Virus record (IMG/VR): IMGVR_UViG_3300021960_000404
Span: 1-27,426 of that record
Length of the DNA: 27,426 nt
Direction: 5' to 3' (one strand)
From: a virus
The notes under the pieces were generated by a model. It was given only the letters and a program-made list of their open reading frames with translations, had not been told where the DNA came from and did not search any database. Below, one piece after another: positions 4,474 through 16,398 of the stretch; the first letter of the stretch is position 1, and every line of letters begins with the position of its first letter. The position numbers and the translations under genes are program-made.

Positions 4474-4548
4474 GCGGGTATAGCTCAGGGGTAGAGCGAT
4501 TCGTTGCCAACGAATAGGTCGCTGGTTCAAATCCAGTTACCCGCTCCA
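4474..4548 (+). tRNA. tRNA-Gly (anticodon GCC)
   Basis: A full cloverleaf with encoded CCA. The acceptor stem is 7 perfect pairs (4474-4480 with 4538-4544), with discriminator T and CCA at 4546-4548. The D stem is GCTC/GAGC. The anticodon stem ATTCG/CGAAT carries loop TTGCCAA, giving anticodon GCC at 4506-4508. The T arm is GCTGG-TTCAAAT-CCAGT with a canonical TTC loop. It starts on the base after the TAA of the preceding gene, so it must be cut from that mRNA by RNase P. Confidence 0.97.
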
Positions 4549-4612
4549 ATACATAAGAACAAAACTAGAACATCTAATATAAAAACAAGTAAAATCAACG
4601 ATATTTAATGGC

Positions 4613-4640
4613 TTGACTTTGGAGACCTATATGATAGGAT
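4613..4640 (+). promoter_or_regulatory. Promoter-like TTGACT-N16-TAGGAT
   Basis: TTGACT (4613-4618), a 16-nt spacer and TAGGAT (4635-4640), in a GGCTTGACTTT context shared with the elements at 4717 and 7087. It lies 6 nt before the ATG of the membrane micropeptide at 4647. The AGGA inside TAGGAT could instead be a Shine-Dalgarno, so the -10 role is less sure than the -35. The rest of 4549-4646 is plain AT-rich sequence. Confidence 0.45.
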
Positions 4641-4646
4641 AACCAT

Positions 4647-4742
4647 ATGAAAGCGGCCATTTTTTTATTATTTTTTCTTTTTTTGTTTATGGCCGCTTTC
4701 TATAGAATTTTTAGGCTTGACTTTTTCAAAACTTTAATATAG
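4647..4742 (+). CDS. Putative 31-aa membrane micropeptide
   Basis: ATG at 4647, stop TAG at 4740-4742. The product starts MKAAIFLLFFLFLFMAAFYR and ends with a short Arg/Lys/Asp-containing tail: one obvious transmembrane helix of about 18 residues with a positive inside-type tail. AGGA sits 7 nt before the ATG. The nucleotide sequence is itself a perfect 12-bp inverted repeat, so the reading frame may be incidental to an RNA hairpin. Two facts favour coding: the uninterrupted hydrophobic frame and a second peptide of the same kind (7057-7158) before CobS. It stops 9 nt before the CobT-like gene. Confidence 0.45.
   Translation: MKAAIFLLFFLFLFMAAFYRIFRLDFFKTLI
4649..4700 (+). repeat. Perfect 12-bp inverted repeat with T-rich loop
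   Basis: GAAAGCGGCCAT (4649-4660) and ATGGCCGCTTTC (4689-4700) are exact reverse complements around a 28-nt loop that is almost all T. The stem is GC-rich against a very AT-rich background. It is not a textbook terminator, because the T run is in the loop and only a short AT stretch follows the stem. It begins where the predicted transcript from the 4613 promoter would start. Confidence 0.85.
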
Positions 4743-4745
4743 GAT
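4717..4745 (+). promoter_or_regulatory. Promoter-like TTGACT-N17-TAGGAT for the CobT-like gene
   Basis: TTGACT (4717-4722), a 17-nt spacer and TAGGAT (4740-4745), ending 6 nt before the ATG at 4752. This is the same TAGGAT-to-ATG distance as at 4647. The mRNA is either leaderless, or AGGA acts as a Shine-Dalgarno for a transcript from further up. The 18 nt at 4707-4724 are repeated exactly at 7077-7094. Confidence 0.5.
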
Positions 4746-4751
4746 ATACAT

Positions 4752-7055
4752 ATGACTACACTAGTAAACATTAACACTAAATCTCAATTAGCAAAACTTA
4801 TTGCTACAGAAAATCTTACAATTCAACATAACAAAGTTAAAACAGCTTCGTTTGATACTCTTAATAGAATATTAACATTACCTATCTTTAAAGTACAAAG
4901 TGGTGATGTTTATGATATGTTAATAGCACACGAATGTTCACACGCTTTATATACACCAGTTGATGGTTGGAAAAAAATACAAGATGATGATGAGTTAAGA
5001 GCTTATGTTAATGTATTAGAAGATACAAGAATAGACAAGTTAATTCAAAAGAAATATCCAGGAGTTGTTAGAAATTATCTTAATGGTTTTGATATAATGG
5101 AAAAACAAAACTTTTTTGGTATTTCAGGTAAAAATATTAATACTGGTTTAATGTTAATTGATAAAATTAATTTGAGATCAAAGTCAATGAATAGATTACC
5201 ATTCAAATTTTCTGAAATAGAAAATGATTGGATTAAAAAAGTTGATGATATTAAAACTTTTAATCAAGTTGTTAAATTAGCTAAAGAAATGTTAGATTGG
5301 CAAAAAAAACAAGTTGAACAAATGAAAAAACTTCCAAACTTTGACAATTTAGAATTAGTTGAAAATTATAACTTAGATGAAGATTTAGATTCAGAAAACA
5401 ATGTTAATACAAAAAACAAAGAAGATTCTGATAACGATACAAATGACGATCAATGGTCATCTTCTTCTAAAGATACAAATGATAATGATGAGGAATCAAA
5501 AGATGAAAATGATGATAAAAACAAAGCAGCTAACGTAGTTAATCCTGACGGTGCTGGTGGTGAACAAGGTGGTGTTGACCCTAAAAAACTTATTGTTATC
5601 ACAGATAACTCTTATGAAAAAAACAAACAATCTCTTTTTGACGAAACTATAAGTTATACCTATGTCAATTTACCAGAGCCTAACTTAAATAAAATAATGA
5701 TTACAAGTAAAGATTGGATTAAAAGATGGAAAGAAATTTCTATGAAAAAAGGAGAATACACTAATTTTAATTTAAGTAAAAGACTAGATTACATCAATTG
5801 GTTAAAAAATGACTTTAAAAAATTTAAAAATGATAATAAGAAAACAGTTATGTATCTTGTTAAAGAATTTGAAATGAAAAAGTCGGCTTCTTCTTATAGA
5901 AGAGCAACACAAAACAAAACAGGAGTTATTGATACTCTTAAATTAAAAGACTATAAATTTAGTGAAGACATCTTTAAAAAGTTAACAGTTTTACCAGACG
6001 CTAAAAACCACGGTATGATAATGTTATTAGATTGGTCTGGTTCTATGTCTGATATTATAAAACAAACAGTTGACCAATTAATGAACCTAGTATGGTTCTG
6101 CCAAAAAATTAATATACCTTTTGAAGTTTATCTATTTACAAGTGAAGCTTACGAAACAGCTAGAAGCAGATATGATGAAAATGGCGAAAGAATAATCACA
6201 GAAGAATCTTGGAATTACAAACACGGTGATGGCCAGTTTGGTGAATTTAATTTAATCAATGTTGCTAGTCACAAAATGAAAAAAATTGATTTAGACGAGT
6301 CTTTAATGTATTTACACCATATGGGACATTACTATAATACAAGATACACTAGAAGTTATTGGGATGCTGATAAAGGTTTTGAGGGTGATAGATTTGATAT
6401 TCCTAAAGAATACTACTTAGGTACAACACCTTTAAATGAATCTTTAGTTGTTATGAATAAATTGGTTCCTATTTTTAAGAAAAAATATAATATTGAAAAA
6501 ATGACTTTTATTACCTTAACAGATGGTGGTTCTGACAATAATTGGGGATTAAGAACTATCAAAAATACAGATAATGGTTTAAAATTAAATTTAGGAAAAG
6601 AATCATCAACACCAATCATCACAATAGGTAAAAAACAATATAAAAACACAAGCAAATCTTATTGGTCTGGTGGTACGGTAACAAATCTTTTATTAAAAGT
6701 TTTACAAGACCAACACAATATTAATACAATAGGTTTTTATGTAATTAAAAGATTAAATAGATTTCATACATTAGATAGATACATTGGTAATTATAAAGAT
6801 TATTCAGACAAAGAAGTTAAGATTGAAAAAATGAAAAAACAATTTTCTAAGGATAAAGTTGCTATTGGTTACCAAGAAGGCTATAACAAATACTTTATAT
6901 TAAATGGTAAAGATATGGATGTTCAAAATACTGACTTATCAGCAGTAAGTGAGGGTATGAAAACTGGTAAGATTAAACAATTATTCAGTAAATCTATGAG
7001 AGGCCGAATCGTTTCCAGAACTCTTTTAAACAAGTTTATTGAGGAGGTTGCTTAA
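4752..7055 (+). CDS. CobT-like VWA protein with HExxH motif
   Basis: 767 residues in three parts. The N-terminal part has a zinc-peptidase-like HECSH at 60-64 inside a hydrophobic helix (MLIAHECSHALY). Residues ~210-265 are a strongly acidic Asp/Asn/Glu/Lys linker. The C-terminal half is a von Willebrand A domain with the MIDAS motif D427-x-S429-x-S431 (LLDWSGSMSD) and a later TLTDGGSD strand. It resembles the CobT subunit of cobaltochelatase, and the next large gene is CobS-like, the cognate MoxR-type AAA+ partner. No CobN is in the window, so cobalt insertion is unproven; a AAA+/VWA chaperone or protease role is equally possible. The HExxH half is the odd part. Two membrane micropeptide genes flank it. 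Confidence 0.75.
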   Translation: MTTLVNINTKSQLAKLIATENLTIQHNKVKTASFDTLNRILTLPIFKVQSGDVYDMLIAHECSHALYTPVDGWKKIQDDDELRAYVNVLEDTRIDKLIQKKYPGVVRNYLNGFDIMEKQNFFGISGKNINTGLMLIDKINLRSKSMNRLPFKFSEIENDWIKKVDDIKTFNQVVKLAKEMLDWQKKQVEQMKKLPNFDNLELVENYNLDEDLDSENNVNTKNKEDSDNDTNDDQWSSSSKDTNDNDEESKDENDDKNKAANVVNPDGAGGEQGGVDPKKLIVITDNSYEKNKQSLFDETISYTYVNLPEPNLNKIMITSKDWIKRWKEISMKKGEYTNFNLSKRLDYINWLKNDFKKFKNDNKKTVMYLVKEFEMKKSASSYRRATQNKTGVIDTLKLKDYKFSEDIFKKLTVLPDAKNHGMIMLLDWSGSMSDIIKQTVDQLMNLVWFCQKINIPFEVYLFTSEAYETARSRYDENGERIITEESWNYKHGDGQFGEFNLINVASHKMKKIDLDESLMYLHHMGHYYNTRYTRSYWDADKGFEGDRFDIPKEYYLGTTPLNESLVVMNKLVPIFKKKYNIEKMTFITLTDGGSDNNWGLRTIKNTDNGLKLNLGKESSTPIITIGKKQYKNTSKSYWSGGTVTNLLLKVLQDQHNINTIGFYVIKRLNRFHTLDRYIGNYKDYSDKEVKIEKMKKQFSKDKVAIGYQEGYNKYFILNGKDMDVQNTDLSAVSEGMKTGKIKQLFSKSMRGRIVSRTLLNKFIEEVA

Positions 7056-7056
7056 A

Positions 7057-7158
7057 ATGATTGATTTTACTATGTTATTTTTAGGCTTGACTTTCACAAC
7101 CAGTATGATATTATTAACCTATAATTATGAAAGGAAAAAACACTATGTTAAACACTAA
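7057..7158 (+). CDS. Putative 33-aa membrane micropeptide
   Basis: ATG at 7057, 1 nt after the CobT-like stop, with a strong GAGGAGG (7041-7047) 9 nt upstream, so the ribosome site supports translation. The product starts MIDFTMLFLGLTFTTSMILL and ends in a basic YERKKHYVKH-type tail: one transmembrane helix with a cytoplasmic positive tail. Its stop at 7156-7158 overlaps the CobS start by 14 nt, suggesting coupling. The promoter for cobS lies inside it. Function is unknown; its position between the two chelatase-like genes suggests a partner or membrane anchor. Confidence 0.6.
   Translation: MIDFTMLFLGLTFTTSMILLTYNYERKKHYVKH
7087..7114 (+). promoter_or_regulatory. Sigma70-like promoter for cobS
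   Basis: TTGACT (7087-7092), a 16-nt spacer and TATTAT (7109-7114), within the micropeptide frame. The expected start is near 7121, leaving a ~24-nt leader with AAAGGA (7130-7135) before the ATG at 7145. The upstream 18 nt (7077-7094) are identical to 4707-4724. Confidence 0.6.
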
Positions 7159-8356
7159 ACAACAAGAGTTTGTTAAACACGCTTTAGAGAAGTTTGGCAA
7201 ATCAAAATTGACCGTTGGTGAGTTAAAAGAAGCTAATAAAAAGTTTGGCTGTAAATATGCTCCACAATGGTTGATTAAAAATAAAGAATACAAAGTTGGT
7301 AAATCTTTATTCAAGTTACCTATTGACGGTGAAGCTAAATCAGTTAAGGTTGAACAGACTAAAACTGAAAACGAAAAAATCTTAGCACCAGTAAATGAAA
7401 CTAAAAAAGAAGCTGCTTATGTAGTTAGCTCTTTAACTGGCAATATTGTTCCTAAAAAGGATCCAGTATTCGTTTCATTTGGTAACTATCCAGATTTAAA
7501 ATCAATTATTAAATCTAATAAATTCTATCCTGTTTTTATTACTGGTTTATCTGGTAACGGTAAAACTATGGGTGTTACCCAAGCTTGTGCCGAAAACAAA
7601 AGAGAATTGATTAGGGTAAATATTACAATTGAAACAGATGAGGACGACCTACTTGGTGGTTATAGACTTAAAGATGGCCAAACTGTATGGCAAAACGGTC
7701 CTGTAATTGAAGCGATGGAAAGAGGCGCTGTTCTTTTACTTGATGAGATTGACTTAGCAAGTAACAAGATTATGTGTTTACAACCAATCTTAGAAGGCTC
7801 TGGTGTCTTTGTTAAAAAGATTAACAAGTATGTTAAACCAGCGGATGGCTTCAACGTGATTGCTACTGCTAACACTAAAGGCCAAGGTTCCGAAGACGGT
7901 AAGTTTATCGGTACCAATGTTCTTAACGAAGCGTTTTTGGAAAGATTTCCAATTACCTTTGAACAAAAATATCCAAGTGTTAGTATTGAAAAAAAGATAC
8001 TTAACAATACATTAAAGTCTTATGGTAAATCAGACGCCAAATTCGTTGACAAGTTAACAACGTGGGCAGATGTGATTAGAAAAACCTACTTTGATGGTGG
8101 TGTTGATGAGATTATCTCCACAAGAAGATTAGTCCACATTACACAAGCGTATTCAATCTTTGATAATAAGATGAAAGCGATTCAAATGTGTACTAATAGA
8201 TTTGATGAAGATACAAAAAATTCGTTTGTTGAATTATATACTAAAGTTGACTCTGGCGCTAGTGTCGAAGACATTTTAGAAGACCAAAGAAAAGCTGAGG
8301 TTGATTCACAAGTGGATGACAATGATAGTGAGTCAGATGACGAAGATGTTATCTAA
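7145..8356 (+). CDS. cobS: CobS-like AAA+ ATPase
   Basis: 403 residues from the ATG at 7145, chosen because AAAGGA lies 9 nt before it; the ATG at 7127 has no ribosome site. The order is an N-terminal helical domain, Walker A GLSGNGKT (134-141), Walker B LLLDEID (197-203), sensor-1 ATAN (240-243) and an acidic C-terminal tail. This is the MoxR/CobS subfamily, and CobS is a well-known gene of marine T4-like phages. In bacteria CobS and CobT form a ring complex that drives cobalt insertion by CobN. Here it pairs with the HExxH-VWA protein upstream. The physiological substrate in infected cells is not settled. Confidence 0.9.
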   Translation: MLNTKQQEFVKHALEKFGKSKLTVGELKEANKKFGCKYAPQWLIKNKEYKVGKSLFKLPIDGEAKSVKVEQTKTENEKILAPVNETKKEAAYVVSSLTGNIVPKKDPVFVSFGNYPDLKSIIKSNKFYPVFITGLSGNGKTMGVTQACAENKRELIRVNITIETDEDDLLGGYRLKDGQTVWQNGPVIEAMERGAVLLLDEIDLASNKIMCLQPILEGSGVFVKKINKYVKPADGFNVIATANTKGQGSEDGKFIGTNVLNEAFLERFPITFEQKYPSVSIEKKILNNTLKSYGKSDAKFVDKLTTWADVIRKTYFDGGVDEIISTRRLVHITQAYSIFDNKMKAIQMCTNRFDEDTKNSFVELYTKVDSGASVEDILEDQRKAEVDSQVDDNDSESDDEDVI

Positions 8357-9383: not shown

Positions 9384-9417
9384 AGAGGCCAAAGGAGCAT
9401 TGACTTTTTTGGCCTCT
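9384..9417 (+). repeat. Inverted repeat with promoter -35 in its loop (module 1)
   Basis: AGAGGCCAAA (9384-9393) and TTTGGCCTCT (9408-9417) are perfect reverse complements with a 14-nt loop that contains the TTGACT -35. It follows the hsp20 stop by 9 nt and could serve as a transcript 3' end or as an operator. A close copy of the whole arrangement lies at 10521-10566. Confidence 0.8.
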
Positions 9418-9437: not shown

Positions 9438-9510
9438 ATCATTAAAATTATTTAATGATATATTAAAACAAAAATTATGGCTTTAGTCTTTGAACTAATA
9501 CTATAATTTT
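9438..9510 (+). promoter_or_regulatory. Two-hairpin 5' leader of the ParB-like gene
   Basis: ATCATTAAA/TTTAATGAT (9438-9446/9451-9459) is a 9-bp stem with a 4-nt loop, expected within about 3 nt of the mRNA 5' end. A second stem pairs AAAATTAT (9471-9478) with ATAATTTT (9503-9510), with an inner TTAGT/ACTAA. Both are AT-only or nearly so. 5'-terminal hairpins of this kind can protect mRNA from decay. Confidence 0.5.
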
Positions 9511-10510: not shown

Positions 10511-10520
10511 ATAAAAAAAA

Positions 10521-10557
10521 TAGAGGCCAAGGAAAGGTTGACTTTTTTTGGCCTTTA
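10521..10557 (+). repeat. Inverted repeat with promoter -35 in its loop (module 2)
   Basis: 10521-10530 pairs with 10548-10557 (core AGGCCAA/TTGGCCT, ten pairs including one G-T). The 17-nt loop contains TTGACT. The layout matches the element at 9384-9428: GAGGCCAA, TTGACTTTTTT, GGCCT, then a -10. It follows the ParB-like stop by 10 nt. Confidence 0.75.
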
Positions 10558-13708: not shown

Positions 13709-14101
13709 ATGTACGAATTGAAAGATTATCTAAACGCAATTAATTTCACTAAAGAGAACCTACTAGATACAGATGATTTAACGTGGGAAAAGAAGTACCC
13801 ACCATTCATCATTAACAAGTGTTTATCAATGCATTATGATTGTATAGCAGCGGCTAATGAGATGAATGGATATCATTTTTTAGATAAGAAAGTCCAGTTT
13901 AATTTTTTGATAAATAGTATTAGAAAAAAGAAGCGATTTGGTGGTAAATGGTTATCACAGACCAAATTGAAAGATTTAGAGTATGTAAAAGAGTATTATG
14001 GTTATAGTAATGAAAAAGCAAAGCAAGCACTTAACATACTAACTGAGAAACAAATTGAAGATATAAAAGAGGCCTTATTTAAAGGTGGGAGAAAAAAATG
14101 A
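13709..14101 (+). CDS. 62: Clamp loader small subunit gp62
   Basis: 130 residues, shorter than T4 gp62 (187). Family features are the N-terminal LKDYLNAINFTKENLL, PPFIINKCLS and the very conserved block YDCIAAANEMN, HFLDKKVQFNFLINSIRKKKRFG, then KWL. gp62 is the non-ATPase fifth subunit of the gp44/62 loader. It lies in T4 order between gp44 and regA, and its stop overlaps the regA start (ATGA). A poor ribosome site precedes the ATG, so translation may be coupled to the small gene upstream. Confidence 0.93.
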   Translation: MYELKDYLNAINFTKENLLDTDDLTWEKKYPPFIINKCLSMHYDCIAAANEMNGYHFLDKKVQFNFLINSIRKKKRFGGKWLSQTKLKDLEYVKEYYGYSNEKAKQALNILTEKQIEDIKEALFKGGRKK

Positions 14102-16077: not shown

Positions 16078-16398
16078 ATGTCAGACGTGAAAATATTAAG
16101 GCTATCCACAGGAGAAGATGTGATAGCAAAAGTAAAAAATAATCCAGAAACAGATACGGTAGAGTTAAAACAAGCATTTGTTATTATACCTCATCAACAA
16201 GGACCAGGCAAACCTGTACAATTGATGATGACACTTTACAGTCCTTATGGAAAAACAGATACGATAGAAATTAAAAATCAAAATGTAATTTCTATGGTTG
16301 ATCCAAAAGATGAGATATTAAAATCTTATCAACAAAATACAAGTAGTATTATTACTACTCCAGGATTAATTTCAGAAACTAAAATACCAAAGTTGTAA
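16078..16398 (+). CDS. Sm-like phage hypothetical protein, 106 aa
   Basis: 106 residues. The N-terminus, VKILRLSTGEDVIAKV, followed by VELKQAFVIIP and VQLMMTLYSPYG with a late NVISMVDPKDEIL block, is the layout of a small beta-barrel protein widespread in T4-like marine phages and resembling Sm/Hfq folds. Such proteins could bind RNA, but I know of no proven function. It has a good Shine-Dalgarno (AAGGAG) and its own promoter, and lies 1 nt upstream of the ferredoxin start. The C-terminal ~25 residues are Ser/Thr/Pro-rich and probably flexible. Confidence 0.65.
   Translation: MSDVKILRLSTGEDVIAKVKNNPETDTVELKQAFVIIPHQQGPGKPVQLMMTLYSPYGKTDTIEIKNQNVISMVDPKDEILKSYQQNTSSIITTPGLISETKIPKL

Follow-up and report, generated by a model that had tools for sequence, protein, structure and literature searches.

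A covarying stem-loop at the predicted start of a promoter transcript in pelagiphage-type contigs, and an overlapping reading frame without coding signal

Stem-loops at the 5' terminus of a transcript are an established means of stabilising mRNA, as set out in the passages of PMC3997798 that cite Emory 1992 and Bouvet & Belasco 1992, and the same review records that RppH of B. subtilis requires at least two unpaired 5' nucleotides and prefers at least three. The leaders of ompA, papA and aprE are 5'-terminal stem-loops of this mRNA-stabilising kind, and the locus described here resembles them in having a stem-loop within about 2 nt or less of the predicted 5' end, upstream of a gene, and a stem whose sequence may change while its pairing stays. 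It differs from them in occurring in pelagiphage-type contigs as a removable cassette with a second promoter, in its long pyrimidine-rich loop and in carrying an AUG at its very 5' end.

The window, that is, the whole stretch of DNA analysed, is an IMG/VR virus record of 27,426 bases from a T4-like pelagic myovirus; the best annotated relative at the hairpin locus is Pelagibacter phage Mosig EXVC030M (Kyanoviridae). The hairpin lies before the gene of a CobT-like 'peptidase' of 767 aa (4752..7055, + strand; phrog_459, E 3.5e-188), after which comes the gene of a CobS-like AAA ATPase (7127-8356; phrog_249). A first-pass annotation had placed a tRNA-Gly upstream and an Sm-like protein at 16078, and both were confirmed, the former at 4474-4548 and the latter at 16078-16398 through a match to the Sm-like structure PDB 3by7 (E 3e-24); this protein is also related to TIP60 chains in PDB. 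Only two tRNAs gave Rfam matches above gathering score, and the hairpin has no Rfam family. This one contig also encodes two proteins of the DruA family (PF14236; 3172-4473 and 20044-21171), which is named after the Druantia defence system.

At 4647..4742 (+ strand), the 31-codon open reading frame (MKAAIFLLFFLFLFMAAFYRIFRLDFFKTLI), the perfect 12-bp inverted repeat and the T-rich loop are present exactly as first described. The 5' arm (GAAAGCGGCCAT) occupies 4649..4660, the 28-nt loop 4661..4688 and the 3' arm (ATGGCCGCTTTC) 4689..4700, all on the + strand, with both arms identified by the perfect repeat, by RNA folding and by covariation. Nowhere else in the window is there a perfect inverted repeat of at least 12 bp with a spacing below 80 nt. 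As RNA, the hairpin folds at −21.9 kcal/mol (z −4.2; 0/200 shuffles equally good), and the T content of its loop (0.86, 24/28) is reached by only 2 of the 27,399 28-nt segments of the window. The overlapping frame is without coding signal in the copies compared, and we judge it incidental.

Flanking the hairpin, and missed in the earlier description, are two sigma-70-like promoters predicted to serve the peptidase gene. P1 (TTGACT-16-TAGGAT, 4613..4640, +) has its −35 at 4613 and its −10 at 4635-4640, ending six nt before the ATG of the frame. P2 (TTGACT-17-TAGGAT, 4717..4745, +) has its −35 at 4717 and its −10 at 4740-4745, again ending six nt before an ATG, here that of the peptidase gene; its −10 doubles as an AGGA Shine-Dalgarno sequence and begins with the TAG stop codon of the overlapping frame. 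A AGTAAAATCAA box (4588..4598, +) precedes the P1 −35 by ~14 nt and is kept at a similar spacing in many relatives as well as at the second hairpin locus described below. Further upstream, an exact AGAACN6AGAAC, a tandem repeat of period 11 (4556..4571, +), recurs in either orientation near the peptidase gene in ~40 loci, and also ahead of the second hairpin locus and at 13971-13986 of the Mosig record, and is probably the site of a phage transcription regulator. This repeat often occurs together with AGTAAAATCAAC upstream of P1-type promoters, and is kept across phages whose proteins are ~50% identical.

Among promoter-like sites in the loci of relatives, the distance from −10 to ATG clusters sharply at 6 nt (41 cases) and is almost never shorter, implying many leaderless mRNAs in pelagimyophages. 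Applied to P1, this geometry predicts a start at 4647, the A of the ATG, such that the RNA would read pppAU and then enter the stem, whose first base is the G of the AUG in hairpin copies.

A separate arrangement of promoter and hairpin is found elsewhere in these phages, in which a strong hairpin holds the −35 TTGAC in its loop. It occurs in the window at 9384-9417 and at about 10519-10552, and in relatives (contig handle and position) at L001 7638, L003 7696, L004 7650, L007 6697, L040 7532, L057 7518, L058 4314, L066 4439, L076 7905 and L078 8216, with 22/170 promoter-like sites so arranged versus 2/2000 random positions. Where measured, these hairpins lie 24-36 nt after the upstream stop codon, and their stems differ and co-vary between lineages; they are terminator-like hairpins nested inside the following promoter. 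A perfect 9-bp hairpin at 9438-9459 (ATCATTAAA/TTTAATGAT) lies a few nt beyond the start predicted for the promoter near 9400 and is possibly another 5'-terminal stem.

We found 12 distinct copies of the P1-associated hairpin in pelagiphage-type contigs, five before the peptidase gene (the window, L001, which is identical in L060, L063 and L077, L003, L137 and L138) and seven before an unrelated 62-aa gene (L182, L183, L184, L186, L192, L194 and L201). The latter were recovered by a pattern scan based on the box upstream of P1, and homologues of the 62-aa gene occur in the isolates HTVC008M, Mosig and HTVC115P. Covariance models R1 and R2 returned no convincing extra copy from relatives' loci or from the whole Mosig, HTVC008M and HTVC115P records. 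Other hairpin pattern scans gave nothing beyond the five peptidase-locus copies or chance matches, a scan of genome contigs gave chance matches only, and blastn and tblastn of the hairpin region against phage records gave no homologous match.

In the alignment of the 12 copies, all 144 stem cells are paired (144/144) and five of the 12 pairs have changed on both sides, whereas slid control alignments are at most 60% paired. Covariation scores 0.283, with shuffles at 0.140 (sd 0.020; 0/500), and for the five peptidase-locus copies alone 0.433, with shuffles at 0.201 ± 0.054 (0/500); the seven stems of the second locus are nearly identical, so that the covariation is carried mainly by five divergent copies. 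The two wobble cells, U-G in L001 and G-U in L182, are permitted pairs in the sense RNA; in the antisense RNA they would be A-C mismatches. The RNA hairpin with a U-rich loop that had been offered as one reading is thus borne out by compensatory change, and selection on pairing in the sense RNA is strongly supported by the comparison, although some of the paired changes could stem from template-switch correction without selection. In all 12 copies the stem begins 8 nt after the P1 −10 hexamer, while the loop varies from 28 to 40 nt; this fixed distance ties the stem to the predicted transcript start, where it would form the extreme 5' end of the P1 transcript, and argues against a DNA operator sensitive to spacing.

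Relatives with a full-length peptidase that is at most 62% identical have a single promoter, immediately ahead of the gene; it is homologous to P1 in the nearest ones (L002, L004-L006 and L122), which identifies the hairpin and P2 as an insert at the P1 start point, a removable and movable cassette. In a tree of the first 330 nt of the gene, L137, which carries the insert, falls among L002 and L122, which do not (support 100/100), indicating that the insert has been gained, lost or exchanged more than once. The L137 insert is flanked by a 17-nt direct repeat, ATAGGATATACATATGA.

Our best explanation, to which we give about an even chance, is a cis-acting RNA whose 12-bp stem and pyrimidine-rich loop make up the 5' terminus of the P1 transcript and protect or insulate that mRNA. 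It builds on what comparison of the copies has established, namely the pairing, the sense-strand wobbles, the position relative to the promoter, the modular distribution and the lack of coding constraint; from these we infer the P1 transcription start, a protective role and distinct tasks for P1 and P2. A transcript beginning pppAU, with the stem immediately after, would have its 5' end shielded from 5'-end-dependent decay (pyrophosphohydrolase, RNase E) and its terminal AUG occluded. As 5'-terminal stem-loops are known to protect mRNA, we propose that the hairpin prolongs the life of the P1 transcript: P1 would yield a durable, leadered mRNA of the downstream gene, and P2 a separate mRNA that is near-leaderless at the peptidase gene. 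The identical −10-to-stem spacing at two unrelated genes supports a 5'-terminal stem, as does the use of the same start point by leaderless genes elsewhere. A purely structural role does not account for the conservation of the AUG or for the open frame of 11 of the 12 copies, although the chance of open frames in the first five copies is only modestly low (~0.37 from loop shuffles, times 1/9 for two length changes that were both multiples of three); and a conserved U-rich loop is superfluous for simple 5' protection.

That loop is conserved in kind. Its T content is 0.49-0.74 in the other copies, at lengths of 28-40 nt, and every copy measured is rich in pyrimidines (Y 0.65-0.89), with UUUYCUUU recurrent; no more than ~0.2% of window segments reach any one of four T or pyrimidine thresholds taken from the peptidase-locus copies. 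A U-rich single-stranded site adjoining a stem, as in Hfq- or Sm-binding RNA, is therefore present, as the first-pass annotation had proposed, and conservation in kind suggests an additional ligand. It is possible, although on balance unlikely, that the element is chiefly a regulatory leader that switches P1 output, with its 5' AUG blocked to ribosomes, its loop bound by a protein (host Hfq or the phage Sm-like protein) or its loop paired with the downstream Shine-Dalgarno sequence. The pyrimidine-rich loops and the presence of an Sm-like protein in the phage agree with such a leader, but the Sm-like gene lies ~11 kb from the hairpin. Loops at the 62-aa locus can pair with AAAGGAG in L183 (−11.0 kcal/mol) and L192 (−10.6 kcal/mol; P ~0.06 each), but in most copies such loop-to-start pairing is no better than in shuffles (L184, P 0.87), and at the peptidase locus it is absent; suggestive in a few copies, it is not significant overall, and we rejected it. 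An Sm site read in GAAUUUUUAGG after the stem was also rejected, as other copies do not keep GAAUUUUUAGG.

It is improbable, in our view, that a leaderless P1 mRNA is translated into a genuine small membrane protein under control of the hairpin, a layout like that of type I toxins. The frame does share with the small membrane peptides of type I toxin-antitoxin systems a length of ~30 codons, a structured mRNA start and, in the window copy, a hydrophobic stretch followed by basic residues; its ATG stands at the exact leaderless position, and the in-frame loops of 28, 31, 37 and 40 nt are all 1 mod 3. Unlike those peptides, however, it has no amino-acid constraint, one frameshifted copy and no protein family match. 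Among copies of equal length, pN/pS is 1.07 for loops of 28 nt and 1.24 for loops of 37 nt, with differences spread over codon positions 1/2/3 as 10/10/12 and 88/65/66, respectively; the adjacent peptidase gene, compared between the window and L003, has 16/8/30. Loop T is even across codon positions (0.69/0.69/0.72), and the hydropathy of the loop peptide is not above that of shuffled loops (P 0.11-0.83 in the five copies tested). The C-termini of the peptide differ between the two loci, the G of its AUG is already the first base of the stem, and in L201 a 38-nt loop shifts the frame while the stem remains perfect. Frame conservation in relatives and the balance of synonymous against compensatory change had been named in advance as the comparisons to make; the former failed in L201, and in the latter the stem changes proved compensatory and the loop had no synonymous excess. 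On pN/pS, codon positions, hydropathy and the frameshift we rejected the micropeptide, for which the evidence in these sequences is weak.

Other phages do have a true coding micropeptide at this site. Between P1 and P2 at their 62-aa locus, a 24-codon block (KTLKQRIKEARRRNYLTLLQIFDI) has a pN/pS of 0.12, demonstrating that our tests detect a micropeptide where one exists. This coding insert (MKTLKQRIKEARRRNYLTLLQIFDI), annotated as a protein in phage Mosig (QOI69143.1), is like the hairpin cassette in starting at the P1 ATG and in having P2 before the same 62-aa gene, but it has no hairpin and is clearly protein-coding; coding micropeptide and hairpin are alternatives at one site. The conserved micropeptide, MK(K)TLKQRIKEARRRNYLTLLQIFDI, overlaps P2 and is found in L187, L189, L191, L196, L199 and Mosig (L204:571-708). 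A third type of insert, with an open reading frame like MKSKDI..KNNGLT and no hairpin, is present at this site in L181, L193, L195 and L200. A more elaborate proposal, which we consider decidedly improbable, is a modular pelagiphage device in which the pyrimidine-rich loop would be targeted by the phage Sm-like protein of the 3by7 type, switching the fate of the P1 mRNA, and in which the cassette would be swapped with the micropeptide.

That the hairpin terminates or attenuates transcription, whether of the tRNA-Gly unit or from P1, is very improbable. Like intrinsic terminators, the hairpin has a G+C-containing stem between transcription units, here with A- and T-rich flanks, and nearby promoters in these phages do bear terminator-like hairpins around their −35. 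In contrast to intrinsic terminators, its loop of 28-40 nt is far too long, there is no U-tract directly after the stem, which is followed by the AT-rich block just before P2 with no conserved T run, and a terminator scan at the hairpin found none; P1, moreover, intervenes between the tRNA and the hairpin, and the suggestion of a transcript-end signal after tRNA-Gly was consequently dropped. Of equally slight probability is a DNA-level feature (operator dyad or cruciform) or a functionless inverted repeat kept by template-switch correction, for although templated correction can create perfect repeats and the site lies between two promoters, the arms change jointly and stand 28-40 nt apart, a latitude unlike that of an operator; relative to the promoter, the stem boundary holds its place in 12/12 copies, and both wobble cells are compatible with the sense RNA only.

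SAR11 is an abundant ocean bacterium, and its phages are among the most abundant biological entities. To our knowledge, hardly anything has been learnt of how pelagimyophages signal gene regulation, and one published study tried without success to predict their middle and late promoters (PMC7029224). The present analysis defines a promoter type and its upstream boxes, describes a start geometry that is near-leaderless and ties a covarying hairpin to the predicted start point; it also rejects a plausible micropeptide against a real one at the same site.
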